This document shows, piece by piece, positions 3,478-55,843 of a stretch of DNA of 55,843 nucleotides. This DNA comes from Lachnospiraceae bacterium (GTDB lineage Bacteria > Bacillota > Clostridia > Lachnospirales > Lachnospiraceae), in contig JAFUXG010000036.1 in the NCBI GenBank assembly GCA_017470935.1, forward strand, positions 1 to 55,843. The letters run 5' to 3'. The notes under the pieces were generated by a model. That model was given only the letters and a program-made list of their open reading frames with translations, was not told the origin of the DNA and searched no databases. A program made the position numbers and the translations under genes. Position 1 is the first letter of the stretch, and each line of letters starts with the position of its first letter.

Positions 3478-6159
3478 TTACTGCTGCTTACCGGGACCTC
3501 CGCTGCCACTTCCCTTGCCGCCGCCTGAGGATTTCCCGCTGCCGTCACCTGAAGGTCTTCCGCCGCCATTTTCTCCTGATGGTCTGTCACCACCCATCTT
3601 CATATCCCCCTGGCCGCTCATTCCTGGCATTCCCATGCCATTCACGCCGCGGGATGATCTGCTGTCAGAGTCCTGGCTTCCCTGCATCTCATAGTAAATG
3701 GTGTCGCCCTCTGAAAGTCCTTCCTTGATCTCCACCTTATTATCATCTGACATACCGAGAGTTACTTCTGTTTTTCCTGTAAGCTCACCTGACGCCTCAT
3801 CATACCCCGTATACACATAGCTGCTTCTTCCCTCGTCTGATATTGCTGCAAGAGGCACTGTAAGTACATTTTCTGCCTCTTCAATTATTACTGCTACAGA
3901 AGCATTCATTCCTGAAAGCATCTCATCCGTTTTGTCAAAGGTTATCTCCACAGGGTACTGTGTTGAGCCATTGCTTCCGCTTGCACTGCCACTTACAGCC
4001 GTTATTGTTCCCTCAAAGGTTTTATTCTCCACTGCGTCAAGAGTGATCTCTGCCGATAAGCCCTCCTTCATCGTAAGAATATCCAGCTCATCCACATTCA
4101 TAGTCACCTTCATCTTATCACCATCAGCAATAGTAAATGCACTTATGGTACTAACCTGTGAGGTTCCTCCATTTGAGCTTCCTGACGATCCTCCGGATGA
4201 ACTTCCTGATGAGCTTCCCTTTGAGGACGTTCCTCCTGAAGAACTGCTTTTTCCTGATGAACTGCCTGTACTGCTTTTTGAGGAGGACGCTCCTGTGCTG
4301 CTGTCACTCTTTGCACTGTCTGTTGTACTGCTTCCGCTTACCGAGCTGCTGCCTGTTGATGTGCTTGACGTACTGCTCTTTCCTGTTGTACTGTCAGTGC
4401 TGCCACCCGATGTATTACTGTTTGTACCTCCTGCCGAAGCTTTACCGCCTGTGGTTCCCGATCCAGTGCTTGCCGTAGTGCTGCTTCCTGTACTGTCTGT
4501 TATAACATCTGAATTGCTCTGGCCTGACTGACTGCCATCTGAGCCAGCGTTACCCTGACTTGCCCGGTCACTGCTTGAGCCTTTGTCATTTTGGCCTGAC
4601 TGGCCGTTATTTGAGCTTGCACCGCTCTGTCCCGGCTGCTCGTTATCTGTGCCTGCCTTAACACTTGTATTTGTCTCTTCTGATGCCTCTTTCACTTCAA
4701 CCTTTACCGCACTGCTTGCCGCAGTTGTTAATGTCTCCTTATACCTGACATACCATACTCCGATACCAGCCTCAGTGTGATCATCTGTGCACTCTGTCCA
4801 ATCTGCTGCGTCCTCTTTATCAGCATATTCCATTTCCTTTGTAGTTCCCTCTATACATCCCACACCTGCCTTAATCTCCTCCAGCAGCTTAAGCTTCTCC
4901 TCACTTACACTTGGAAGCACTGAGGCTCCATATATATTCACGTCAGAAACCGATAACCGTGTATCATATGGTGTATCGCTATTATGGGCTAATGTATCTG
5001 AAGATGTTGTGGAATCTTTCAATACTGTGTTATTTGCTGATGCAAGCGTCTTTGATGTTACAGATGGCGCTGCAAGATTTGTTATTGTAACAGCAGATAT
5101 GCTGTGCACAGAGCTGTCTGTATCTGAAGCATCCACATCATCTGTTATGGAATGGTCTTTATCACTTATCATATTATCAGATGCTTCACTTAGATTATTG
5201 GCCGCGGTCATAATGCATCCTTGTGAATCATCCTTGGCATCCTCCACACCAGCAGAATTCTTGGTGCCACCAGTCATTGCTTCTGCAGATGTATTATTGT
5301 CAGAGGCTGATCCTGATACATTGATTGTCTCCACCATACCCTCGACACCAGCAGTAATGCCTCCATTTTTCTTAATTGATATAAGTGTTTCTAATATAGA
5401 CACAAGTTCTTCTCTATCCTTTACAGCCTGAAGATATTCCCCGGACTGTGCATCAGAATCTATAGTGAATACCCTTGTGGAAGCAGATACACTGCTTCCC
5501 TCAGACACGTTGACAGATGTAATGGTTCCGTCACTGCCAATAACCTTGATGGTCTCATCTCCATTTTTCACGAGCATGAGGGCACCGTTCTCCACCATTA
5601 TATCCTCTACACTATCACCGATACTGCCATAAATTTTCTCAACTGTACCGGACACACCCGCTGTCACATACTGAGTTGTACTGCTGCTAAGCTCAGATGT
5701 TATGGTGGAATCAAGCCCGCTTATTGCTTCCTCCACATCAGCTATGCACACCGCCAGTGATGTCTTATCCACCGTGGCAAGGAGAGTTCCCTTTTCCACA
5801 TATGTTCCCTCACTTACGAGAATCTCATCCATTTCAAGATCAGAGGGCACCTGAATATCTGTTGTGCCGGCATAGGAAATGGTACCTGTTCCGGACACAC
5901 TTTCCTTAATGGTTCCCGTTCCCACAGTGGCACTGATAGCCTTGCTCTCAGAGGCTTTTGTTTTGTTCTGCTTCGTTATTGCATTTCCCACCGTTGCAAT
6001 AACAAGACATATAATAAGTGCTGCTGCAATTATCTTCTTTCTTTTCCCTTTGCTCCTTCCAAGCCTTTGTTTTATCTTCTTCGATTCAGACTTATCTGAT
6101 TCCTGTTTTACAGATTCAACATCACCTGAATCTAAGCTTCCTGACCTAAATATCTTCAT
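3478..6159 (-). CDS. HlyD/MacA-type membrane-fusion adaptor with giant low-complexity linker
   Basis: An 893-aa adaptor subunit, roughly twice the usual family length. Order: a charged cytoplasmic N-terminus, one membrane helix (~residues 43-61), a lipoyl/barrel-sandwich hairpin (~75-130), a second lipoyl-like half (~165-240), and a long acidic/Ser-rich insertion. A Ser/Thr/Gly-rich stretch follows (~490-668, nearly devoid of hydrophobics), then the beta-barrel and membrane-proximal part (~675-830) and a Gly/Met/Pro/Lys-rich tail. The start is the ATG at 6159, with GGAGG seven bases upstream; a TTG five codons earlier lies before that site. It should bridge the MacB-type permease to the cell wall. 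The linker probably spans the thick Gram-positive wall or is glycosylated; that is inference. Confidence 0.85.
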   Translation of the reverse strand: MKIFRSGSLDSGDVESVKQESDKSESKKIKQRLGRSKGKRKKIIAAALIICLVIATVGNAITKQNKTKASESKAISATVGTGTIKESVSGTGTISYAGTTDIQVPSDLEMDEILVSEGTYVEKGTLLATVDKTSLAVCIADVEEAISGLDSTITSELSSSTTQYVTAGVSGTVEKIYGSIGDSVEDIMVENGALMLVKNGDETIKVIGSDGTITSVNVSEGSSVSASTRVFTIDSDAQSGEYLQAVKDREELVSILETLISIKKNGGITAGVEGMVETINVSGSASDNNTSAEAMTGGTKNSAGVEDAKDDSQGCIMTAANNLSEASDNMISDKDHSITDDVDASDTDSSVHSISAVTITNLAAPSVTSKTLASANNTVLKDSTTSSDTLAHNSDTPYDTRLSVSDVNIYGASVLPSVSEEKLKLLEEIKAGVGCIEGTTKEMEYADKEDAADWTECTDDHTEAGIGVWYVRYKETLTTAASSAVKVEVKEASEETNTSVKAGTDNEQPGQSGASSNNGQSGQNDKGSSSDRASQGNAGSDGSQSGQSNSDVITDSTGSSTTASTGSGTTGGKASAGGTNSNTSGGSTDSTTGKSSTSSTSTGSSSVSGSSTTDSAKSDSSTGASSSKSSTGSSSGKSSSSGGTSSKGSSSGSSSGGSSGSSNGGTSQVSTISAFTIADGDKMKVTMNVDELDILTMKEGLSAEITLDAVENKTFEGTITAVSGSASGSNGSTQYPVEITFDKTDEMLSGMNASVAVIIEEAENVLTVPLAAISDEGRSSYVYTGYDEASGELTGKTEVTLGMSDDNKVEIKEGLSEGDTIYYEMQGSQDSDSRSSRGVNGMGMPGMSGQGDMKMGGDRPSGENGGGRPSGDGSGKSSGGGKGSGSGGPGKQQ

Positions 6160-6337
6160 AGCTGATACCTCCAATCTCCGTTAATACTCATATATTTTCT
6201 CATTTATTAATCCGTAATGTGTTCAAATCTGCAGTATAGCTTCACTGCTGATTTTTTAATATGTTAACAGTCAAACATTTAAAAAACCTTGAAATTATAT
6301 ATATGAGTTAAAAAGATTTTAAGGTATCATTATGCTT

Positions 6338-7249
6338 TTATAGCACCAGCTCCGCAACCGAATGGGCGTCAGCTCCCTTTATCAGGAGCAAGGGCTTACC
6401 TTCTTCCTCATTGGCAATTGTATCTGCCAGCTCCCAAAATTCATTCCAATACTGGTGCTTTCTTTTCTTTGAGCTGATATTCTGCTCAAGAGCGATTCCA
6501 TTCTCTCTTGCTGATCTGATAAGCTTTTCCGACATTTCTGCCATATCCTCTGTCCAATTCCTCTTCCTTCGGAATGCTCTGTCAGGATGGGCTATTACAC
6601 GAAAATATCCGGTATCACATGCCGTAAGCATTGCCTCCATAAGCCCATATGCCTCACATTGATTTTTCACCTCTGTACTGTCAGAAAAGCTATATACTCC
6701 CGGCTCATACTCATAAAAATGCTGCCCGACTATAAGCCATCTAATATCTTCATTGGCTGCAAGCTTTCTGTAATACTCATCGAAGCTTGGAAGATATTCG
6801 ATTTCAAGACCTATCTGTACACTAATATACTTAATATATCTATCAGCAAGCTTCTTAAGAGAAGCTATATATTCCGGCAGCTCTTCAATATCCATCCTGT
6901 TGCCAAATGGATTACCGGGAAAGGGAGCATGATCTGTGAAAATGATACGCTTAGCTCCAAGTTCTATTGCCCTTCTTACATACTCCTCATCCTCCTCGTC
7001 ACCTGCATGCTTACACCTGTATGTATGGACATGAAATATATCATCTGCACAGATCTCTGCCACCGGGCGCATCTCATTTACCCTATTCCATTCATCATCA
7101 AGCTCATCAAAGGAAGCTCCGCTTAACGCCCTGTTACACTCAGGACACCTTATCCTCAGGATTGGTCCGCAGTTTTCTCTAAGTATTTTCTCCGCAGGCA
7201 ATCCGCAATACATGCATGGATTAAGCTTATTACCAATATCAACTGACAT
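6338..7249 (-). CDS. PHP-domain phosphoesterase with N-terminal zinc ribbon
   Basis: A 303-aa protein. Residues 12-48 contain two CxxC pairs (CMYC and CPEC) followed by a DEWN element, resembling the Lar-type zinc ribbon. From ~72 onward is a PHP domain like histidinol-phosphatase HisK/HisJ: HVHTYRCKHAG, FTDHAP near 102, an LEIEYLP element, VGQHF, AHPDRAF near 218 and a terminal DAHS. These supply the metal-binding His/Asp set. Start ATG has AGGAGG upstream. No histidine genes are nearby, so the substrate is open; it could be histidinol phosphate or another phosphoester. No partner gene is in the same transcript. Confidence 0.85.
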   Translation of the reverse strand: MSVDIGNKLNPCMYCGLPAEKILRENCGPILRIRCPECNRALSGASFDELDDEWNRVNEMRPVAEICADDIFHVHTYRCKHAGDEEDEEYVRRAIELGAKRIIFTDHAPFPGNPFGNRMDIEELPEYIASLKKLADRYIKYISVQIGLEIEYLPSFDEYYRKLAANEDIRWLIVGQHFYEYEPGVYSFSDSTEVKNQCEAYGLMEAMLTACDTGYFRVIAHPDRAFRRKRNWTEDMAEMSEKLIRSARENGIALEQNISSKKRKHQYWNEFWELADTIANEEEGKPLLLIKGADAHSVAELVL

Positions 7250-7467
7250 TATTCATCCTCCTATCCTCTATTAAACCATTTAACTTATATACACATCTAT
7301 TTATTAATATTACCAAAGAAATTTACAATAATATCTGCTATTATTATAGCACTTTATATTGCAAAAACTGTAAACTCTCAGTTTAAAATCTTTAATATTT
7401 TCAAGCTTATTTTAAGAATTACCAGATATAATCAATATAGCTTTAAGATATTAAGCCCATATATCAC

Positions 7468-7489
7468 CACCCGGCAGATTACCCGGGTG
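7468..7489. other. GC-rich hairpin upstream of the two-component operon
   Basis: CACCCGG and CCGGGTG flank an 8-nt loop in otherwise AT-rich DNA, about 15 nt upstream of the putative -35 box. No T-run follows on either strand, so it is not a typical terminator. It could be a binding site for a regulator, for example the response regulator encoded just downstream. The rest of the 7250-7600 gap shows nothing else beyond the promoter listed separately. Confidence 0.4.
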
Positions 7490-7501
7490 CAAAATGAGGC
7501 A

Positions 7502-7530
7502 TTGTATTTAACATTTTTCTACTATATAAT
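7502..7530 (+). promoter_or_regulatory. candidate sigma-A promoter of the two-component operon
   Basis: TTGTAT at 7502-7507 and a perfect TATAAT at 7525-7530 are separated by 17 nt. The start codon of the response regulator lies about 70 nt downstream. Confidence 0.55.
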
Positions 7531-7600
7531 ATTAACGTGTGTAAAGGCTGTTATTTCAACATTTAATATATAAAAGCTCTGACCGAAAGGGGGAATTACC

Positions 7601-8278
7601 ATGAGATTATTATTAGTCGAAGACGAAGAAGGCTTTGCCGAGGCGCTATGCACCTCGCTTAAAATGGAACACTATATAGTTGACTGGGCTGCTGACGGCG
7701 AGGAGGGACTTGACCAGGCACTTTCCGATGTGTATGATGCAGTAATCCTTGATATTATGCTGCCCAAGATGAGCGGGCTGGAAATATTAAAGGAAATGCG
7801 TAACCAGGACATCCATACTCCTGTCATTATGCTGACAGCCAAATCGGAATTAAATGATAAGATTACCGGCCTTGATATGGGAGCTGACGATTATCTTACA
7901 AAGCCCTTTCACAGAGAAGAGCTGTTTGCAAGGCTTAGGGCACTCACAAGACGGCAGACCACTGATGCAGAGGCTCCCTCTGAGGTGGCTTACGGCGACA
8001 TATACATGCAGCAGGGCGGTAATGAGCTGTACTGCCGTTCATCAGGAAGCAGTATAGCACTGAACGGAAAGGAATATCAGCTCATGGAATATCTCCTTAG
8101 AAACGGAGGCCAGATCATAAGCCGGGAACAGATTATCGAGAAGGTTTGGGGATACGATACCGACGCAGAATACAACAATGTGGAGGTGTACATCTCCTTT
8201 CTCCGCAAGAAGCTTACCTTCCTAAAGGCAGGGACCTCCATCCAAACCGTCAGAAAGCTTGGATATAAGCTGCAGTAA
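7601..8278 (+). CDS. OmpR/PhoB-family response regulator
   Basis: A 225-aa two-component response regulator. The receiver domain (1-118) has the acidic pair E7/D8, the phosphoacceptor D51 in VILDIMLPK, a conserved Thr in MLTAKSE and Lys in DYLTKPF. The C-terminal winged helix (~128-225) contains GKEYQLMEYLL, the ISREQIIEKVWG recognition helix region and RKLGYKL. A GGGGG ribosome site precedes the ATG. The sensor kinase gene starts 29 nt downstream, so they form an operon. Targets are unknown; members of this type beside envelope transport genes often control them, which would fit the adaptor/permease genes further left, but this is inference. Confidence 0.93.
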   Translation: MRLLLVEDEEGFAEALCTSLKMEHYIVDWAADGEEGLDQALSDVYDAVILDIMLPKMSGLEILKEMRNQDIHTPVIMLTAKSELNDKITGLDMGADDYLTKPFHREELFARLRALTRRQTTDAEAPSEVAYGDIYMQQGGNELYCRSSGSSIALNGKEYQLMEYLLRNGGQIISREQIIEKVWGYDTDAEYNNVEVYISFLRKKLTFLKAGTSIQTVRKLGYKLQ

Positions 8279-8307
8279 ACAGTAATGAAGTACGAAGGGA
8301 GAACCCC

Positions 8308-9735
8308 ATGACAAAACAACTCAGGAAGCGCATCATGATAATTCTCATGCTGCTGCTAAGCATAACATTTATTGCTATTATAGCTGCCATCAATATAGGT
8401 CTTAACAGCGGCAACCGCAACATGGCTAACGAGAGCCTGCAGTTTCTTATGCAGCGTGAAGGCCGTCCTGATAACATGCCTGAATTAAATCCCGGCGGGA
8501 ACAAGCCTGGCAGTGAATCAGATAATGCGACACCCGGGGACAGGCCGGATAATAAGCCGGATGCTAAGCCTGACACTAGCGGCAATGATAATGCTGAAGG
8601 CGGCTCTGACAGTTCTGCCGGCAATACCGCTGATGGCAGCAATAATCCTGCTGCAGGCGACAGCGAAGCCCGTCCGCCGGAGCTACCGGAGGATAGCAGG
8701 CGTGCTGATGACAGACACATGGAGCTTGCCACATCCCATTATATTCTCGTTAGAATTGACAAAAATAACAACCTGAAATCAATCGACAATACCTTGTCAG
8801 ATTCGTATTCAGATGAAGATATAGAAAGCTACTGCAAGGAGATAATTTCGGAAAATAAAAAGCAGGGAACTATCGATCAGCTAAGATACTTGGTCAGGGA
8901 GAACAGGAATGATGTGGTCATTGCATTTATCGATCATTCTTCTGCCGTACAATCCGGAAGAAATCTTATGATCATATCTGTTGTGGCAGGAGTTTTTGCT
9001 ATAGCTTTCTTCGCCGTGCTTTCCTATGTTCTTTCCGGATGGATGGTGAAGCCTGTAGAGGAAGCCTTCACCAAGCAGAAGCAGTTCATATCCGATGCAA
9101 GCCACGAGCTGAAGACACCGATTACGGTCATTCTTTCTAACAGTGAGCTTCTAGAGGATCAGATTGGTGAGAACAAGCAGCTATCATATATTAAGAAGGA
9201 ATGTGACCAGATGCACTATCTTGTCACATCACTCCTTACCCTTACAAGACTTGAACAGGCTCCCTATAAGGATATGGAAAAAAATGATTTCTGCATCAGT
9301 GATACAGTTCTTGAACGGATCCTCCCTATGGAAAGCGTTGCCTTTGAAAAGGGGGTTATGATGGATTATGAAAATGTAGCTCCCGACCTTCATTTCTATG
9401 GTGTAAAGGAACAGCTTGGGCAGATAGCTGCCATTCTTATTGACAACGCCATAACACACACAGATAAAGGCGGAACAATAACCATTAAGCTTTGGAAAAC
9501 ACCACATCACATTCATCTTACAGTCGCCAACACAGGCAAGGAGATTCCTGAGGATGAACGGGAACGTTTATTTGAGCGGTTCTACCGTGCGGATGAATCG
9601 AGACACCGGGCAAGCGGGCATTTTGGTCTGGGGCTTTCTATTGCCAAGACTATCGTTACGAATCACAAGGGAAAGATAAGTGTGGACTGCGCAGATGGAA
9701 TTACTACTTTTACAGTAAGGCTGAAAATCCAGTAG
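8308..9735 (+). CDS. sensor histidine kinase with Pro/Asp/Gly-rich extracellular loop
   Basis: A 475-aa membrane kinase. Transmembrane helix 1 is at ~9-31. The extracellular loop begins with a low-complexity Pro/Asp/Gly/Asn-rich segment (~50-130) containing repeated DxKPD and GDRPD-like units, then a folded part (~140-210). Helix 2 is at ~216-242. The HisKA box reads SDASHELKTPI with the phospho-His near 265; the HATPase domain has N-box DNAITHTDKGG, a G1 box near NTGKEIPEDE, FERFYR and GLGLSIAK. Start ATG follows GAAGGGAG. It should phosphorylate the upstream regulator. The disordered loop resembles in style the linker of the HlyD-type protein and may also extend through the wall. Confidence 0.93.
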   Translation: MTKQLRKRIMIILMLLLSITFIAIIAAINIGLNSGNRNMANESLQFLMQREGRPDNMPELNPGGNKPGSESDNATPGDRPDNKPDAKPDTSGNDNAEGGSDSSAGNTADGSNNPAAGDSEARPPELPEDSRRADDRHMELATSHYILVRIDKNNNLKSIDNTLSDSYSDEDIESYCKEIISENKKQGTIDQLRYLVRENRNDVVIAFIDHSSAVQSGRNLMIISVVAGVFAIAFFAVLSYVLSGWMVKPVEEAFTKQKQFISDASHELKTPITVILSNSELLEDQIGENKQLSYIKKECDQMHYLVTSLLTLTRLEQAPYKDMEKNDFCISDTVLERILPMESVAFEKGVMMDYENVAPDLHFYGVKEQLGQIAAILIDNAITHTDKGGTITIKLWKTPHHIHLTVANTGKEIPEDERERLFERFYRADESRHRASGHFGLGLSIAKTIVTNHKGKISVDCADGITTFTVRLKIQ

Positions 9736-9815
9736 GATTTCTTATGCAGGCACATATAACTGAATAAAAGCTTATGTATTAATACATCGCATATTCCATA
9801 TGTAGTCCTGTAAAA

Positions 9816-17327: not shown

Positions 17328-17396
17328 CCGAAAGCAACTGGCTGCCATTCCAAAGGCCCTATAGCTTTGCGTCACAAGATTTCTCCTGCTTTGCCC
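17328..17396 (-). ncRNA. c-di-GMP-I (GEMM) riboswitch aptamer
   Basis: On the minus strand the order of conserved GEMM-I blocks is GGGCAAAGC; a CAGGA-GAAA-TCTTG hairpin carrying the GNRA tetraloop; the invariant GTGACGCAAAGC; TATAGGGCC; and the tetraloop-receptor side ATGGCAGCCAGTTGC. These match the known cyclic-di-GMP-I aptamer in sequence and spacing. It sits about 10 nt after a strong promoter and about 100 nt before a terminator hairpin, upstream of the secreted transglutaminase/InlB-repeat gene. Whether c-di-GMP turns the gene on or off depends on the antiterminator pairing, which I could not resolve. Confidence 0.9.
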
Positions 17397-17410
17397 ATAT
17401 TTATAAGAAG

Positions 17411-19369: not shown

Positions 19370-19383
19370 CGAACATTAGTTCG
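19370..19383 (-). promoter_or_regulatory. LexA (SOS) box
   Basis: CGAACATTAGTTCG is an exact match to the Gram-positive LexA consensus CGAAC-N4-GTTCG, and the symmetry extends to AAC/GTT outside it. It overlaps the expected transcription start of the Y-family polymerase gene, just downstream of the -10 box, so LexA binding would block initiation. Confidence 0.92.
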
Positions 19384-27013: not shown

Positions 27014-27070
27014 TAATAGGTAATTGTGAAACTCGATTTCTTTCGTGAAGATTTGCGCAATTATCTATTA
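27014..27070 (-). repeat. long inverted repeat, intergenic element copy A
   Basis: TAATAGGTAATTGTG (27014-27028) pairs with CGCAATTATCTATTA (27056-27070), a 15-bp stem with two G-U pairs. The right arm contains the stop codon of the PolC-like gene. Its AATTGCG core and position match the repeats at 40781 and 45856. Confidence 0.65.
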
Positions 27071-29433
27071 ACTGATGCAAGATTACTTTGTACCATAAGA
27101 TACTCCTCAGGATAATTCAATCTGTACCATATAAGCTTAGAGTAAAAGATTGCATACTCAGTATCATGCACCTTAGGGAACAGATATTTTATTGTCTTTA
27201 TTGACTCGATATATTCTTCACTTATTCCTTTACTTCTAAGCATTTCATAGTCATTCTCCGTAAGCTCCTTCTTAACCCTGCCCTTTCTCACAAGCATCAT
27301 AATCCGATAAGCATCCTCTCTTCCTATGCCGTGACGTATCAGAGTATTCATCACATCATCTCTATGAGGGATCACCTTATCAGGATCATGGAAATTCTTT
27401 TTAAACAGCTCAACCGCATCGCCCTCCCATACATCGGGAGATTGATGGTAATATCCAAGTATTCTGACTATATCTGAAAAGGAATTAAGGGAAGCTGTAT
27501 CAGCAAATTTCCCTGCCAGATGTAATGGCGGAATATCCTTATTAAGCTCCTTTTCAAAAAATGTTCTGTAATCAATCTCTTCTATCGAAATACTATTCGC
27601 TTTCACAGAGGTCATTTTCTCCAACTGATGTATAAATGATAATCTGTCATTACCAATAATATACATTCCCATAGCATCAAACATGCTTCTATGGTCAGAA
27701 AACCGCGCAGTTGCTCTGCCGTCTGTATAACCATCATTAGTGGTTAATTGTCTTATGGATGTATAATCATATATTTCCTTGTCAGGAGAAATCATGATTA
27801 TTTTAAACGGATGCTGCCATTGTTCAATACCAAAAGCTGCACTTGCATGAAACACCTTATTATTACCTAGAAATCTATCCAAATGTTCAAGTATATCAGT
27901 TCTAAGTTCAGGAGTAACATCAACTTCGAAATGGGGATGCTTTTCTCCATTAAGCCCTGCGAACACCTCAAAGTGAATATCATGACCATCACAGTCTAAT
28001 GCATTGCCGCATTTCGGACAGCTGCGTTTTCCCATACCGGCACCCATGAGATCAAAACCAGAGCTTATTCTGCCGGACACCTTTTCAGGCGAAAAATCAA
28101 CATACCCACATGCCGGACAAAAGTAGTGTGGCGGCAGCGGATTAGTTCCGGTAATTCCTGTGATATAAGCCACATATGACGCTCCTACGCTACCTCTTGC
28201 CAGAGTATAGCCGCTAAGTCTCCTGCATTCACCTGTAATCTCAGCAGCAGCCAGATAATAAGATGAATATCCATGAGACATGATCTTATCAAGTTCATCA
28301 CTCATTCTTTCACTAACCTGAACAGGAAGCCTTTCTCCATACTTTTCGTGTGCTCTTTCATAACACACAGCCTTAAGCTTCTCATCTGCATCAGGAAGCT
28401 TAAATCTCTTATCATCTGCTGAATACGGCTCAATATACTCAATCTGTTCTTCAAGGAGTAACGGTTCTCGTACCATCACATCCATGGCAAGCTCATCACC
28501 CAGATATCCATACTCATTAAGATATGATTCATCGACTCCAGCAGTGTTGATGTCTGCTATGACTATTTTCCCGATGGACTTAAGATATCTTGCTATCATG
28601 ACTGCTATCTCTGCCAACCTAACGTCTTCACCCGGTTCAATCTTTATCGTCTTGAGATCTGAGATGCCGCATTTGTCTTTTACCTTCTCATTAATCTGAT
28701 GCATCAAGCTGTATGGACAAAGCTCTACAAAATCCATATCACCATATCGGAATTCCACCGATTCTTTTATCTCATCATCACTAAAACCGCTCTGCGCCAG
28801 TGTCCGAATGTAACTCCATGAGACCGAGCGACCCAACAATACTCCTTCTCTGTCAGAAAGTATATAGTCCAAATCGCAGACACCTGCATATAAATAATCC
28901 AAATCGCAGACATAGATATTGTTATCATCCGTATTAGTGATATGATTACAATTATTATCAACATTATCGATATATTCAGATGACACTATCCTGTTAAGGG
29001 TTCTTATTCCATTCCTGTTCTTAACAAGAATACGTATGTCCAATACATAATCCGGATTTTTTTCATCTACAGCATAGCTTCTTTTGCAGAAGAGCGTGTT
29101 AGAAAATACAGGCTTTGCTCCATCGTCCGTAAAATACCTGAATTCATCAGGGTCACCAAGACAGCTAAATGGTACAAGAACCATCTTCCTGTCATTTTTA
29201 GAAGGCTGCCTCAACATCCTCAACGCATCCGCCTGCAATTCTCTAACCTGATCAGGAGTTATATCAAGCTTATTAGCAGTTTCTTCAATACTAATTCCTT
29301 CTTCGCCGCTTAAGGTGCCGAATCTAAGCTCTATTACTCTTCTATAGAGCTTAGGCAGGCGTTTGCGTCTTTCCTCAATAAATCCGAGTGATTTTGCTAA
29401 TTTCTTTACCTTGTTAATATCTGTATTCTTCAT
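27061..29433 (-). CDS. sigma-70 region 4-like HTH fused to a catalytically degenerate PolC-like polymerase
   Basis: A 790-aa protein. Residues 24-76 resemble sigma-70 region 4 (LPKLYRRVIELRFG, then the HTH SIEETANKLDITPDQVRELQ). From ~80 to the end it follows Gram-positive PolC after the exonuclease insertion: ILVKNRNGIRTLNRIVS, LARGSVGASYVAYITGITG, NPLPPHYFCPACG with a second CPKCG zinc pair, GHDIHFEVF, SPDVWEGDAVELF, LVRKGR and IKYLFPKVH. PolC's N-terminal domains, first PHP half and exonuclease are absent. Where PolC has PDIDLNF, this has PHFEVDV, and LKLDILGHDD is replaced by MGMYIIGNDR, so the three catalytic Asp residues seem lost. Start chosen at the ATG with GGGAG upstream, downstream of the promoter. 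It is not the replicative polymerase; DNA binding or scaffolding is inferred. Confidence 0.82.
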   Translation of the reverse strand: MKNTDINKVKKLAKSLGFIEERRKRLPKLYRRVIELRFGTLSGEEGISIEETANKLDITPDQVRELQADALRMLRQPSKNDRKMVLVPFSCLGDPDEFRYFTDDGAKPVFSNTLFCKRSYAVDEKNPDYVLDIRILVKNRNGIRTLNRIVSSEYIDNVDNNCNHITNTDDNNIYVCDLDYLYAGVCDLDYILSDREGVLLGRSVSWSYIRTLAQSGFSDDEIKESVEFRYGDMDFVELCPYSLMHQINEKVKDKCGISDLKTIKIEPGEDVRLAEIAVMIARYLKSIGKIVIADINTAGVDESYLNEYGYLGDELAMDVMVREPLLLEEQIEYIEPYSADDKRFKLPDADEKLKAVCYERAHEKYGERLPVQVSERMSDELDKIMSHGYSSYYLAAAEITGECRRLSGYTLARGSVGASYVAYITGITGTNPLPPHYFCPACGYVDFSPEKVSGRISSGFDLMGAGMGKRSCPKCGNALDCDGHDIHFEVFAGLNGEKHPHFEVDVTPELRTDILEHLDRFLGNNKVFHASAAFGIEQWQHPFKIIMISPDKEIYDYTSIRQLTTNDGYTDGRATARFSDHRSMFDAMGMYIIGNDRLSFIHQLEKMTSVKANSISIEEIDYRTFFEKELNKDIPPLHLAGKFADTASLNSFSDIVRILGYYHQSPDVWEGDAVELFKKNFHDPDKVIPHRDDVMNTLIRHGIGREDAYRIMMLVRKGRVKKELTENDYEMLRSKGISEEYIESIKTIKYLFPKVHDTEYAIFYSKLIWYRLNYPEEYLMVQSNLASVNR

Positions 29434-29620: not shown

Positions 29621-30461
29621 AATCCGTGCATTTCAATAAATATCCCGGAATCCGTTATGGCAAATGGCAATATGATAGGAGATCTGGCAAGACAATATTT
29701 TGGAGAATATGAACTTGTTGAATTTAACTAGAATAAGTCTGTCATGGCAGGGAAGACTTCTGAACTGATGAATTCGGGGACAGCCAACATTGCTGAAGCC
29801 GCATTCTATACCGATGGGCTTTACTGTGCTGTGGACATCCTGCACAGGGTGGGAGATGCTTACGATATTATAGAGGTAAAGAGTTCAACCCATGCCACAG
29901 ATACCATTTCAGTATTCTCTTCATATCGAACAAGCTGACGGAAGGATAGAGCATCGTGAATTTCTTGCAAAGGAAGGCACTGACCCAAGAAGAGCCATCG
30001 CCGAAAGTCTGTGCAAGGACTTCCCTACAGACGTATGTGTCCTTGCTTACAATATGTCCTTTGAGCGTGGCGTATTACAAAGACTTGCCCAGACATTTCC
30101 CGATCTGTCGGAACATCTGCTGGCAATAAGAGATAATATACACGATCTTATGATACCATTTCAGAAGCAGTATTATTATACAAAAGCAATGCAGGGATCC
30201 TATTCCATCAAGTATGTACTCCCGGCACTTTGTCCAGGAGATCCGGAGCTTGATTATCACTCCCTTCACGGCGTACACAACGGTGGCGAAGCATCTGCGG
30301 CATTTGCAGATATGCCGAATCATACTCCTGATGAGATTGCCGTTATGCGGAACGATCTTCTGAATTACTGCTGCCTTGATACACTGGCAATGGTTAAGGT
30401 ATTAGAGAAATTAAGAAATGTATGTGCTGCAGGGCTAGTACAGTATCAAATTGAATTTTAG
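29621..30461 (+). pseudogene. decayed DUF2779 protein gene
   Basis: Remains of a DUF2779-family gene (Cas4-like PD-(D/E)XK part followed by an RNase H-like DUF2779 domain). The N-terminal piece (GNMIGDLARQYFGEYELVEF, later VDILHRVGDAYDIIEVKSS with the D-ExK nuclease motif) lacks its first ~20 residues and is cut by an in-frame TAG at 29729-29731. Near 29893 the frame jumps directly into QIPFQYSLHIE of the C-terminal domain, so the middle of the gene is deleted. The C-terminal 570 bases (29892-30461) remain open, with LAYNMSFERGVL and YSIKYVLPAL visible. A start there could still give a 189-aa fragment, but no ribosome site is seen. Confidence 0.8.
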
Positions 30462-30519: not shown

Positions 30520-31875
30520 TTATTTCTTAATTTTACCATCAATATCAATATATCTTATAGGGTTACCCTTTCCATAAATATTGTGCGTTACACTATCTGG
30601 ATTAGGTCTTTTTTTCTTCCCTTCTTTTATAGCTTTATCTCGCTCCTTCTTTTTTTCAAGCCTAGTAATTTTTACATATCTATCCGAATGAATAATCCTT
30701 CTATACAAATATTCAATATACTCTTCATAGTTTGGATCATCTTCAGATATATCTTCAAGAATCATATAAGTTCTTCCTAATATATTTTTAAATTCATTCC
30801 TTGGATCTTTTTCTTTTTCTACATTTTTAATGTATTCACTTCTAAAGTCAGATGGCATATCATCTAATTCTACCTGCGAAGGATGCTTCCCTTTACTATC
30901 TGCGACAGTTACTATACTTTTTGCTAATTCATAATCTTCATTTCTAAAGTGAATTATTCCCTCTCCGTGAGGGTATTCTGAATTCTCCTTAGTGCTCTCA
31001 TACATACAATGAATTTTTTTCCCATCAACTTCCTTAATCTTGTATATTCCTACAACACGAGCTTGAACCGTAGCAAATACATATTCAATTCCTAACTTCT
31101 CAAAGCTTTCAATTTTAATTTTCCAATTCCCACATGCAGTATCTTTAATGGCGTTTTTTCGTTTCTCTCCAACAGGATACTTTAAACATTCTGGATAGGC
31201 GTTATTTATATTAATAAGCAGCGCTTTAACTTTTCTCTTTTGCAAATCCTCGTAATACAATGGTTTTTTCGCAAATTCTTCACAGAATTCATCAACAGTC
31301 CATGCTTTTGTTAATCCAGTTTGTTTTTCTCCTTCACTTTGATGCCCTTGAACTTTATTGGTAAGTTTATCCTTATTATCACTACAACTTGAATCAAATT
31401 TTAATCCACCAATACGTAAAAGATTAATTAGCGCAGATTCCGCCATAAACGCCTCTTTACTAGTCATCCCCCATTTTATGATGTACTTCACAATTTTACC
31501 ATGTCGCTTATTTATTTCTTCAATCTTATGAATTTTCTCTGAGAGTTCTTCCTTTCTTTTTTCCAATTCATCTAATCTACCTTCTTTTGCGAGTTCCTCT
31601 TCCAGAATTCGTATCTGATCAGATGTTTCTAATTCATGTGACCAAACTCTTGATCCCTTTCCTTCGCCAATATAAAAAGGAATCAAACTTTCTCCTACCT
31701 TCTCACATAAAGCATATACATAAGATCTATGATCTTTATCATGTTTAGGATCAACTTCTTTCGAAAAATCATCTAGGGCATAAGTAAATTCTTTAATAAC
31801 CTCATTACTCTCAATGATTGATATTTCCAACTCTTGATATTCAGCTTGTACTTCTTTATTTGGGGTTTTACTCAT
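30520..31875 (-). CDS. GIY-YIG nuclease-like protein (LEM-3-like)
   Basis: A 451-aa protein. Residues ~50-75 carry a GIY-YIG-type start (RSYVYALCEKVGE, then FYIGEGKGSRVWSH), as in the LEM-3-like branch where the second triplet is YIG followed by GKG-x-R. A charged coiled-coil segment (~85-120) and a conserved-looking KWGMTSKEAFMAESALINLL follow, the latter fitting the catalytic Glu region. The C-terminal half is Lys/Glu-rich and unrecognised. Codon use is much richer in A/T than in neighbouring housekeeping genes, suggesting acquisition. GAGAGG precedes the ATG. It is alone in its transcript, and beside nuclease remnants. A DNA-cleaving defence or mobile-element role is inferred. Confidence 0.7.
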   Translation of the reverse strand: MSKTPNKEVQAEYQELEISIIESNEVIKEFTYALDDFSKEVDPKHDKDHRSYVYALCEKVGESLIPFYIGEGKGSRVWSHELETSDQIRILEEELAKEGRLDELEKRKEELSEKIHKIEEINKRHGKIVKYIIKWGMTSKEAFMAESALINLLRIGGLKFDSSCSDNKDKLTNKVQGHQSEGEKQTGLTKAWTVDEFCEEFAKKPLYYEDLQKRKVKALLININNAYPECLKYPVGEKRKNAIKDTACGNWKIKIESFEKLGIEYVFATVQARVVGIYKIKEVDGKKIHCMYESTKENSEYPHGEGIIHFRNEDYELAKSIVTVADSKGKHPSQVELDDMPSDFRSEYIKNVEKEKDPRNEFKNILGRTYMILEDISEDDPNYEEYIEYLYRRIIHSDRYVKITRLEKKKERDKAIKEGKKKRPNPDSVTHNIYGKGNPIRYIDIDGKIKK

Positions 31876-32220: not shown

Positions 32221-33099
32221 TTAAAAATAATCATCATTTTCATTCCTGACCTCAAGATCAAATACGCTTTTAATCTTTTTTTTGTCATGGCGTGGGAGGA
32301 TCTTCTCTGTCACAACCTTATTCTTTCCCATATCAACCAAAACAACAGACATATGTGTATTGAACTTCTGTTTCATAACCATATCAGAAAATGCATTAAA
32401 TAAATGCTCTTCAGTAAACACAAATGTATTCTTAATATCTTTAAGTGTATCCGGCTCCCACACATCTTTAAGAAAAACATGTACACAGTCATCCATCAGC
32501 CACCTGATATGTCCGGTGATAATGTTCTCATTGGACCAATCCAACTTAGAGTCCTCTCCAAAGAAATTAACAATAAAATTCCAATATAGCGGCTCATAAC
32601 CCTGCAGATGTACGGCAAAGCTGCTATATTGATGCAGACCATAAGAGCTTTTTGGAACCTCATCAAGCGGAAGTCTCGGATAAAATCGCAGCATCAATCC
32701 TCTATCATATAACTCATCTGCTATTATATTTCTTATCGCCCTCTCCGCATTCTTACGATCTTCGCTCTCCTTTCTGCTGTCTTCATCCATCTTCATTCTA
32801 TGCTCCTGCTCATCCTTTGGAAGCATACCATTAGCCCTCATAAAATCTTCATAATCGATTTTATCCGGATTGACAGCATTTCTCACGATTGACTGAATAA
32901 GTTCGACAGCTAAAGGCTTCGTAATCTTGCAATTGACAATTCTGGAAAATGTAGATGCGCTAACCATCCCACAGTCCTCGGCGAACTCTGCCATGGTTCT
33001 CTCCAGCCCCTTTGCCTGATTCACATACATCGCCAGCCTCATCTTGTCCGGTACCAAAGCCTCTATATATTCACGATTAAAATCATTCCTTTCACTCAC
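32221..33099 (-). CDS. HTH-type protein with unknown C-terminal domain
   Basis: A 292-aa protein. The N-terminal ~70 residues look like an XRE-type helix-turn-helix (RTMAEFAEDCGMVSASTFSRIVN). A polar linker (~75-115, KDEQEH to RKNAERAIRN) leads to a ~175-residue C-terminal domain with no recognised motif, containing SSYGLHQYSSFAVHLQGYEP and VVLVDMGKNKVVTEKI, which looks like a beta-rich ligand or effector domain. It begins with GTG, preceded by AGGAGG about 10 nt upstream. It could regulate a neighbouring accessory gene; a similar HTH-plus-domain layout occurs in toxin- or nuclease-associated regulators, but identity is uncertain. Confidence 0.6.
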   Translation of the reverse strand: MSERNDFNREYIEALVPDKMRLAMYVNQAKGLERTMAEFAEDCGMVSASTFSRIVNCKITKPLAVELIQSIVRNAVNPDKIDYEDFMRANGMLPKDEQEHRMKMDEDSRKESEDRKNAERAIRNIIADELYDRGLMLRFYPRLPLDEVPKSSYGLHQYSSFAVHLQGYEPLYWNFIVNFFGEDSKLDWSNENIITGHIRWLMDDCVHVFLKDVWEPDTLKDIKNTFVFTEEHLFNAFSDMVMKQKFNTHMSVVLVDMGKNKVVTEKILPRHDKKKIKSVFDLEVRNENDDYF

Positions 33100-55612: not shown

Positions 55613-55843
55613 TGATTCGTCCTCCTTTAAATACATTTTGATAAATTACTGTTTAGTTAACTTTTGTTTTTGTATGACGGACGCAGGTAAGCTGTCAGCA
55701 TTGTGCGTTTTGTATGACTTTCTGTACGGTGATAAGAGTTTCTAAGTATCCCGTTAAAGCTTTGATGACGTACGCGGCAAGGTGCTTAGTCGCCATCCAT
55801 GGCTCCGGCGCACCTGCTCGGCATCCATGCCTCGCATCCGCTG
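55613..55843. other. region upstream of infA to the window edge, no gene identified
   Basis: The first ~130 bases next to infA are ordinary AT-rich leader. The outermost ~70 bases are markedly GC-richer and contain repeated ATGGATG words; one minus-strand frame stays open for about 48 codons from the edge but resembles no expected gene (map or a KOW protein usually lies here). It may be the end of an unrecognised gene or an intergenic repeat. Confidence 0.4.

Follow-up and report, generated by a model that had tools for sequence, protein, structure and literature searches.

A PolC-like protein with replaced catalytic aspartates beside an AAA+ ATPase in a Lachnospiraceae bacterium

Two of the described systems with which the protein presented here can be compared are the replicase PolC, in which a thumb segment splits the palm and, together with the tandem-HhH end, holds duplex DNA, and the MZA anti-phage system, whose sigma-like protein is MzaA. 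According to the available part of the report on Enterococcus faecium PolC, a double mutant with Ala in place of the first two equivalent catalytic Asp had no polymerase activity, and five residues of the nucleobase pocket were described (PMC12592400). The DnaE2 mutasome includes ImuB, a Y-family polymerase that is inactive, and the accessible sections of two surveys of bacterial polymerases report inactive PHP-, Y- and X-family proteins and none of the C family (PMC3919608, PMC12926913). Among conflict systems, the vWA-MoxR type has been presented in a text whose accessible portion names no PolC, sigma, SpoVK or CbxX (PMC7159879).

The window analysed here, the whole stretch of 55,843 nt from a Lachnospiraceae bacterium, encodes a PolC-like protein, hereafter pseudo-PolC, with an AAA+ ATPase partner (Table 1); a normal PolC is encoded elsewhere in the same genome. 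Residue numbers follow the 826-residue reading of pseudo-PolC. The minus strand of the window also carries a c-di-GMP-I riboswitch (17330-17405) and a TwoAYGGAY RNA (55721-55843), and the segment 17726-19382 comprises a Y-family polymerase gene and, some 80 bp upstream of it, the LexA-like box GAACATTAGTTC (19371-19382). No exact LexA-like GAACN4GTTC box was found before the operon of pseudo-PolC, and an SOS-controlled repair gene was rejected on this ground. Promoter-like sites were not commoner than in shuffled sequences (34 vs 34.8).

Table 1. Position of pseudo-PolC, its motifs and the surrounding genes in the window
Feature	Coordinates	Strand	Remarks
Pseudo-PolC gene	27061..29433	-	790 aa from ATG 29433, 826 aa if the start is GTG 29541; PolC match
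Sigma-70 region 4 type HTH	29206..29361	-	residues 61-112 of the 826-aa reading
RGSVGAS palm loop	28177..28197	-	retained
Two CxxC zinc-ribbon pairs (CPAC, CPKC)	28003..28119	-	retained
Palm motif PHFEVDV, replacing PDIDLNF	27916..27936	-	first two catalytic Asp changed to H537 and E539
MGMYIIGNDR, replacing LKLDILGHDD	27643..27672	-	third catalytic Asp changed to Y627
Fingers stretch	27154..27453	-	nucleobase-pocket residues: H of YYHQSPDVW and Y, F, H, Y of IKYLFPKVHDTEY; also LVRKGR
AAA+ partner, 961 aa	24098..26983	-	N part of ~390 aa and two SpoVK/CbbX-type AAA modules; gap of 77 bp to the upstream pseudo-PolC gene
Broken DUF2779 gene remnant	29640..30461	+	divergent from the operon
GIY-YIG protein like PADLOC PD-T4-3 (2.8e-8)	30520..31875	-	between the putative-HTH gene and pseudo-PolC; only a putative module member
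292-aa protein, putative HTH	32221..33099	-	PHROG 'DNA binding protein'; in L014 and L037, homologues lie before the AAA gene

Both the fold and the sequence of pseudo-PolC are similar to those of PolC, and VRKG, the RGS loop and both zinc CxxC pairs are kept. Alignment of the two palm motifs with their PolC counterparts places H537, E539 and Y627 at the catalytic positions, so that all three palm Asp are replaced, as a reading of the sequence alone, made before this analysis (the sequence-only reading), had suggested. No intact acidic triad was seen elsewhere in the palm in this alignment; a shifted pair (E539 and D541) is present in the window protein and in its homologue at locus L014, but the third acid has no replacement that could be seen and most of the thumb is gone, and an active polymerase with relocated acids was rejected. 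The thumb slot holds 10 residues compared with 46 in PolC (~36 are gone), and no residue follows the fingers cut, against 132 in the organism's own PolC, so that the tandem HhH and the clamp-binding end are absent; a pattern search found no clamp-like motif. The PHP core is partly present, the PHP metal-ligand motifs of PolC are absent from the alignment, and the OB/N-terminal part is missing, as is the exonuclease. Judged by its sequence, pseudo-PolC would be unable to polymerise, and it lacks parts that hold duplex DNA in PolC. The region 4 fold of sigma-70 claimed for the N terminus was confirmed; for sigma region 2 there was no Pfam match up to E 1, and several positions of the recognition helix (TPDQVRELQADALRML) differ from the organism's own RpoD (TRERIRQIEAKALRKL).

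The 26 genomes of the genus, its own among them, yielded one more clear homologue, a 724-aa protein of genome G002 (L014; its contig is also that of L048, from a Lachnospiraceae MAG), which is 39-40% identical to the window protein and has Y, E and H at the Asp positions; a more distant short PolC-like protein (L015, G019) has intact Asp. Scanned with the C-terminal profile A5, genome contigs gave seven loci, with relatives in RUG11929 (L049, L050), Lachnospiraceae MAGs (L051 and L052, 98% identical) and Eubacterium MAGs (L053, L054), and gave no relative with the query P0001. Searching the family with A1 at E 1e-90 gave two normal PolCs besides the window gene. Among the matches listed, normal PolC also dominates the broader search of 387 family genomes with A7; the 16 genomes with a full-strength PolC and another match, to the exclusion of those with two or three weaker matches, were taken further and yielded at least 17 more non-canonical PolC-like loci, a lower bound because only these 16 were followed.

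The resulting table holds 30 PolC-like rows, namely 16 thumbless, 13 with a thumb, of which three are normal PolCs, and one fragment (L016). At least one catalytic Asp is lacking in 14 of the 16 thumbless rows, all three being kept in L049 and L050, and in one of the 13 thumb-bearing rows (L098); some of the Asp positions are gaps in L082 and L089-L091, and motif placement is uncertain in the most divergent rows (L082, L085-L088, L090). Asp loss is thus seen in 15 of the 30 rows, the window protein included. On a 28-row tree built without the catalytic and thumb columns, the window protein groups with L014, L054, L049 and L050 (support 98/98), and the Asp state changes at least five times; a single clade of all 15 inactive rows was rejected (p-AU 2.3e-6, with long branches present and the group defined from the data). 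Based on these changes and on this rejection, the catalytic Asp were probably lost repeatedly among the short PolC-like proteins of Lachnospiraceae and relatives, to which the window protein belongs. Compared over independent pairs, thumb loss and Asp loss gave one supported pair.

For the window-L014 pair dN/dS was 0.23 (dS 2.4, near saturation), and it was 0.19 both for the inactive pair L085-L086 and for the Asp-intact pair L049-L050; dS was saturated in two more inactive pairs. This fits purifying selection, under which pseudo-PolC appears to be. The gene does not look like a decaying singleton, given this ratio (near saturation) against a 39%-identical homologue and the recurrence of its AAA neighbour. 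With the Asp lost and the gene apparently kept by selection, the protein probably senses or mimics something rather than copying DNA.

Conservation of the HTH, on the other hand, was not borne out: no HTH was found in the closest homologue, L014, and none was detected in the PolC-like protein of L054. An HTH_3 is fused to an Asp-deficient thumbless PolC-like core in L085 (7594-9069) and L086 (7666-9141) and is unrelated to the sigma-4 domain of the window, and HTHs on PolC-like proteins are therefore recurrent but different in kind.

Some short PolC-like proteins combine PHP-type start motifs with three intact Asp (L051:678-2885, L052:8090-10297, L055:5922-8294 and L092:2112-4889); neighbouring genes are of the metallo-beta-lactamase type (L051, L052, L055) and the HTH_11 type (L055, L092), with Pfam run on the L052 and L055 genes only. 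One of these proteins lies in a viral contig, and they may possibly be compact polymerases of mobile elements. The C-terminal profile found this locus alone in viral contigs (L055, Asp intact); P0001, the N part of the AAA+ protein (A4) and A1 found no relative there, and a phage-borne origin of the gene was rejected. By tblastn, P0001 matched 24 phage and 27 plasmid records; among the matches listed (12 phage, 10 plasmid), coverage of the query stayed below 80%, and the one record inspected, pCY186, has a full-length PolC.

The set of five pocket residues described for E. faecium PolC in the available part of PMC12592400 is complete in the window protein and in L054 (5/5 each) and nearly so in L014 (4/5). 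Retention of the pocket over the 15 inactive rows was 0.72; it was 0.52 for the 77 columns conserved in 90% or more of 10 active rows. Since 645 of 10,000 random sets of five columns matched the pocket, its above-average retention is suggestive only and is taken as a hint. The complementary contrast, poorer retention of the catalytic columns than of random invariant ones, is circular, since those very columns served to class rows as inactive.

The AAA+ partner, named as such in the sequence-only reading, matches TIGR02881 (E 1.4e-142), and Walker A, Walker B and an Arg-finger-like motif are present in both of its modules. The model of its N part has a mean pLDDT of 55.5, better at residues ~165-380, and AAA+ proteins are its best fold matches (E ~1e-5, TM ~0.3-0.4); on this low-confidence model the segment ~165-380 may hold a degenerate AAA module, and no Walker A was found in the N part by pattern. 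The N part occurs in 14 of 397 family genomes (E 1e-4) and, with a wider profile, in seven of 391 class genomes (E 1e-12), and had no match in plasmids.

The proposed pairing with this AAA+ gene stood in so far as it recurs at L014 and L053/L054, but it does so at few sites: of 21 non-redundant AAA loci, three, the window included, have a PolC-like gene as their immediate neighbour on the same strand within 200 bp, and by Pfam this neighbour is a DnaB C-terminal domain (L057), a protein with sigma region 2 and WYL (L041) or a Clp protease (L037) at one each, with another neighbour or none at the rest. In each of the three lineages that pair PolC with AAA, the PolC core has lost catalytic Asp. 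Conversely, the AAA family does not adjoin 12 of the 15 inactive PolC-like rows, nor the Asp-intact short proteins of L015, L051, L052 and L055, within the stretches examined; for L049 and L050 the contig begins ~220 bp upstream, and a partner there may lie beyond its end. Pairing is thus recurrent but not obligate. Other AAA genes lie near Asp-intact PolC-like genes in L095 and L096, and in the latter (5245-9744) an FtsH-like AAA and M41 peptidase part directly precedes the PolC-like gene. Gene order also varies, with the PolC-like gene first in the window and the AAA gene first in L014. There, the AAA gene is followed by pseudo-PolC and a 237-aa gene before uvrB (L014:6288-12054), and in L037, from the window's own genome, it is followed by a Clp protease gene before uvrB (L037:8408-11924). 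These two AAA genes, from two genomes of one genus, are 84% identical, and because one pairs with pseudo-PolC and the other with a Clp protease, the partner of the AAA gene looks exchangeable.

The putative-HTH protein accompanies the AAA gene in the window, L014 and L037 (41% identity between window and L014). Defence-type genes at AAA or PolC-like loci include McrBC (L014, L037), GmrSD (L053) and Mrr (L054), WYL genes were found at L041, L065, L096 and L098, and genes for an AAA_3-type ATPase and a DUF2201 VWA-like protein lie near related AAA genes in L046 and L068; no Pfam WYL match was obtained beside the PolC-like genes of L083 and L091, and beside L087 the match was below threshold. Altogether, by a plain count of neighbours, these loci look like defence or conflict islands. 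PADLOC has no model for pseudo-PolC, its only match being MzaA to the HTH at 0.0015, and gave no match for the L014 homologue.

Several other arrangements were observed around these genes. Longer relatives of the DUF2779 remnant lie near the AAA gene in L065 and L037 and near the PolC-like gene in L098. A sigma-70 region 2-like stretch and WYL occur in one protein near the AAA gene in L041 (4734-6431) and L039 (3922-5718), above the Pfam sigma cut-off in the former and below it in the latter. One strand of L081 (7903-13907) carries shortened PolC-type, DnaB N and C, two DnaA ATPase and DnaE-type genes; its DnaB parts are without most of the ATPase core, and a UPF0227 gene and a YYPRGR-domain gene lie in between. 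The Butyrivibrio plasmid pCY186 (L116, NC_014390.1 110542-130485) has its own PolC, DnaB, DnaA/Hda and DnaX genes, and a plasmid replisome of this sort is a possible source of L081-type genes. The YYPRGR domain, of 105-120 aa, forms the N terminus of the L054 PolC-like protein (L054:6422-6799) and occurs also in L061, L066, L081 and L098. It is phage-linked, with 17 viral loci (L099-L115) on 15 contigs, and was found in seven of 382 genomes; the L081 copy, the only one scanned, had no Pfam match, a PolC-like piece lies near the domain in viral locus L105, and the domain search gave no further PolC-AAA units.

Our preferred reading, a tentative one to which we give a probability of about 0.4, is that pseudo-PolC would be a pseudo-replicase whose PolC palm-fingers core has been kept to serve a defence-like AAA+ module as its recognition subunit, with nucleotide sensing as its foremost form. 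Its pocket would bind a nucleotide or a similar ligand and could thereby report, for instance, on the dNTP pool while a phage or mobile element replicates; binding would be relayed to the AAA+ ring, which would remodel or release a target, and pseudo-PolC and the AAA+ protein would as a unit serve defence or conflict. The sigma-4 domain would provide an extra contact, with RNA polymerase or a promoter; this is favoured because an HTH is also fused to the PolC-like cores of L085 and L086, and it would be optional in the family since none was seen in L014 or L054. A recognition subunit is preferred because, as far as sequence can show, the anatomy speaks against DNA synthesis and a normal grip on duplex DNA and leaves a pocket and a surface. 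It is supported by the replaced Asp, the pocket kept at 5/5, the low dN/dS, the pairing in three lineages, the seemingly exchangeable partner of the AAA gene and the defence-type neighbours. Against it are counted the possibility that the pocket was retained for structural reasons, the 18 of 21 AAA loci with no adjoining PolC-like gene and the 12 of 15 inactive rows without this AAA beside them in the stretches examined, the near relatives L049 and L050, which are thumbless with three intact Asp, and the fact that PADLOC holds no model for pseudo-PolC.

Less probable, though deserving attention, is that pseudo-PolC would be a bait: by resembling host PolC and sigma region 4, it would capture phage or plasmid factors aimed at those machines, which would thereby trigger the AAA+ partner. 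This would account for the fusion of parts of two host machines in one protein, and it is consistent with the DnaB, sigma-region-2/WYL and Clp protease genes adjoining the AAA family (L057, L041, L037), with the run of shortened DnaA (two), DnaB, DnaE-type and PolC-type copies in L081 and with the decoy role proposed for inactive enzymes of conflict systems in the accessible portion of PMC7159879. However, an immediate neighbour of the PolC, DnaB, sigma or Clp type is found at only six of the 21 AAA loci, and L081-type genes could stem from plasmid replisomes such as that of pCY186. In a wider form, which we regard as equally doubtful, Lachnospiraceae and their relatives would make immune modules from inert, shortened copies of PolC, DnaE, DnaA, DnaB and sigma together with AAA+ motors, as baits or ligand sensors of attack or drain by invaders, and the window protein would watch two machines. 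DNA-binding regulation, close to what the sequence-only reading proposed, with the HTH on a promoter and the dead PolC core as ligand or partner domain, is possible but weaker: the sigma-4 fold, the HTH_3 fusions of L085/L086 and the WYL-type regulator genes near PolC-like genes in L096 and L098 (with the below-threshold match beside L087) agree with it, but the HTH was undetected in L014 and L054 and its recognition helix is unlike that of the organism's own RpoD.

The combination of kept PolC core motifs and lost catalytic Asp would also suit a dominant-negative antagonist of replication, an inert core that enters and blocks the replisome of host or invader; this appears improbable, as the parts that would place it there (the clamp-binding end, the tandem HhH and most of the thumb) are gone and the pattern search gave no clamp-like motif. 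A repair adaptor comparable to ImuB, in keeping with a polymerase predicted to be inactive and with PolC-like genes near uvrB (L014, L051, L052) or a RecN-like gene (L082), is more doubtful still, since there is no clamp motif and the exact GAACN4GTTC box, present in this window upstream of the Y-family polymerase gene, is missing before the operon. Fast divergence and truncation might suggest a polC duplicate in decay, but long open frames in distant relatives, a dN/dS of ~0.2, the recurrent AAA arrangement and the repeated loss of certain motifs make this very improbable, and it is disfavoured.

Compared with PolC (Geobacillus kaustophilus 3f2b; Enterococcus faecium 9qpc), pseudo-PolC shares the palm and fingers fold, zinc ribbons, RGS loop, VRKG, nucleobase pocket and a partial PHP core, and differs by the absence of the three Asp, most of the thumb, the exonuclease, the OB/N-terminal part, the tandem HhH and the clamp end and by the added sigma-4 HTH. 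ImuB is likewise a polymerase scaffold without catalysis, but its fold is of the Y family rather than the C family, and the clamp motif and LexA-like box were not found here. The AAA+ partner resembles SpoVK/CbbX-type ATPases in its TIGR02881 match and in the Walker A/B motifs of both modules, and is unlike them in its tandem modules and ~390-aa N part. With the vWA-MoxR systems, as far as the accessible text of PMC7159879 goes, there are in common the AAA_3-type ATPase and DUF2201 VWA-like genes near related AAA genes (L046, L068) and the inactive enzymes proposed as decoys, whereas no MoxR or vWA gene was found beside the window pair among the window proteins scanned (part of the ORFs). The likeness to MzaA is confined to a weak match of the HTH, with a score far below the NCBIfam cut-off, and no other MZA part was seen. 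Among the open-licence papers listed we recognised no description of an inactive PolC paralogue or of such a PolC/AAA layout, in line with the novelty that the sequence-only reading had suspected; as far as searched, an inactivated polymerase scaffold is a known kind of protein, and its occurrence in the C family and in this setting is undescribed. PolC-derived proteins that appear to be under selection, with Asp probably lost more than once, would make it possible to test whether a replicase has been turned into a sensor, bait or adaptor; searches for conflict systems in Firmicutes of the rumen and gut can use their gene signature, a PolC core that lacks the thumb, the Asp and the clamp end.
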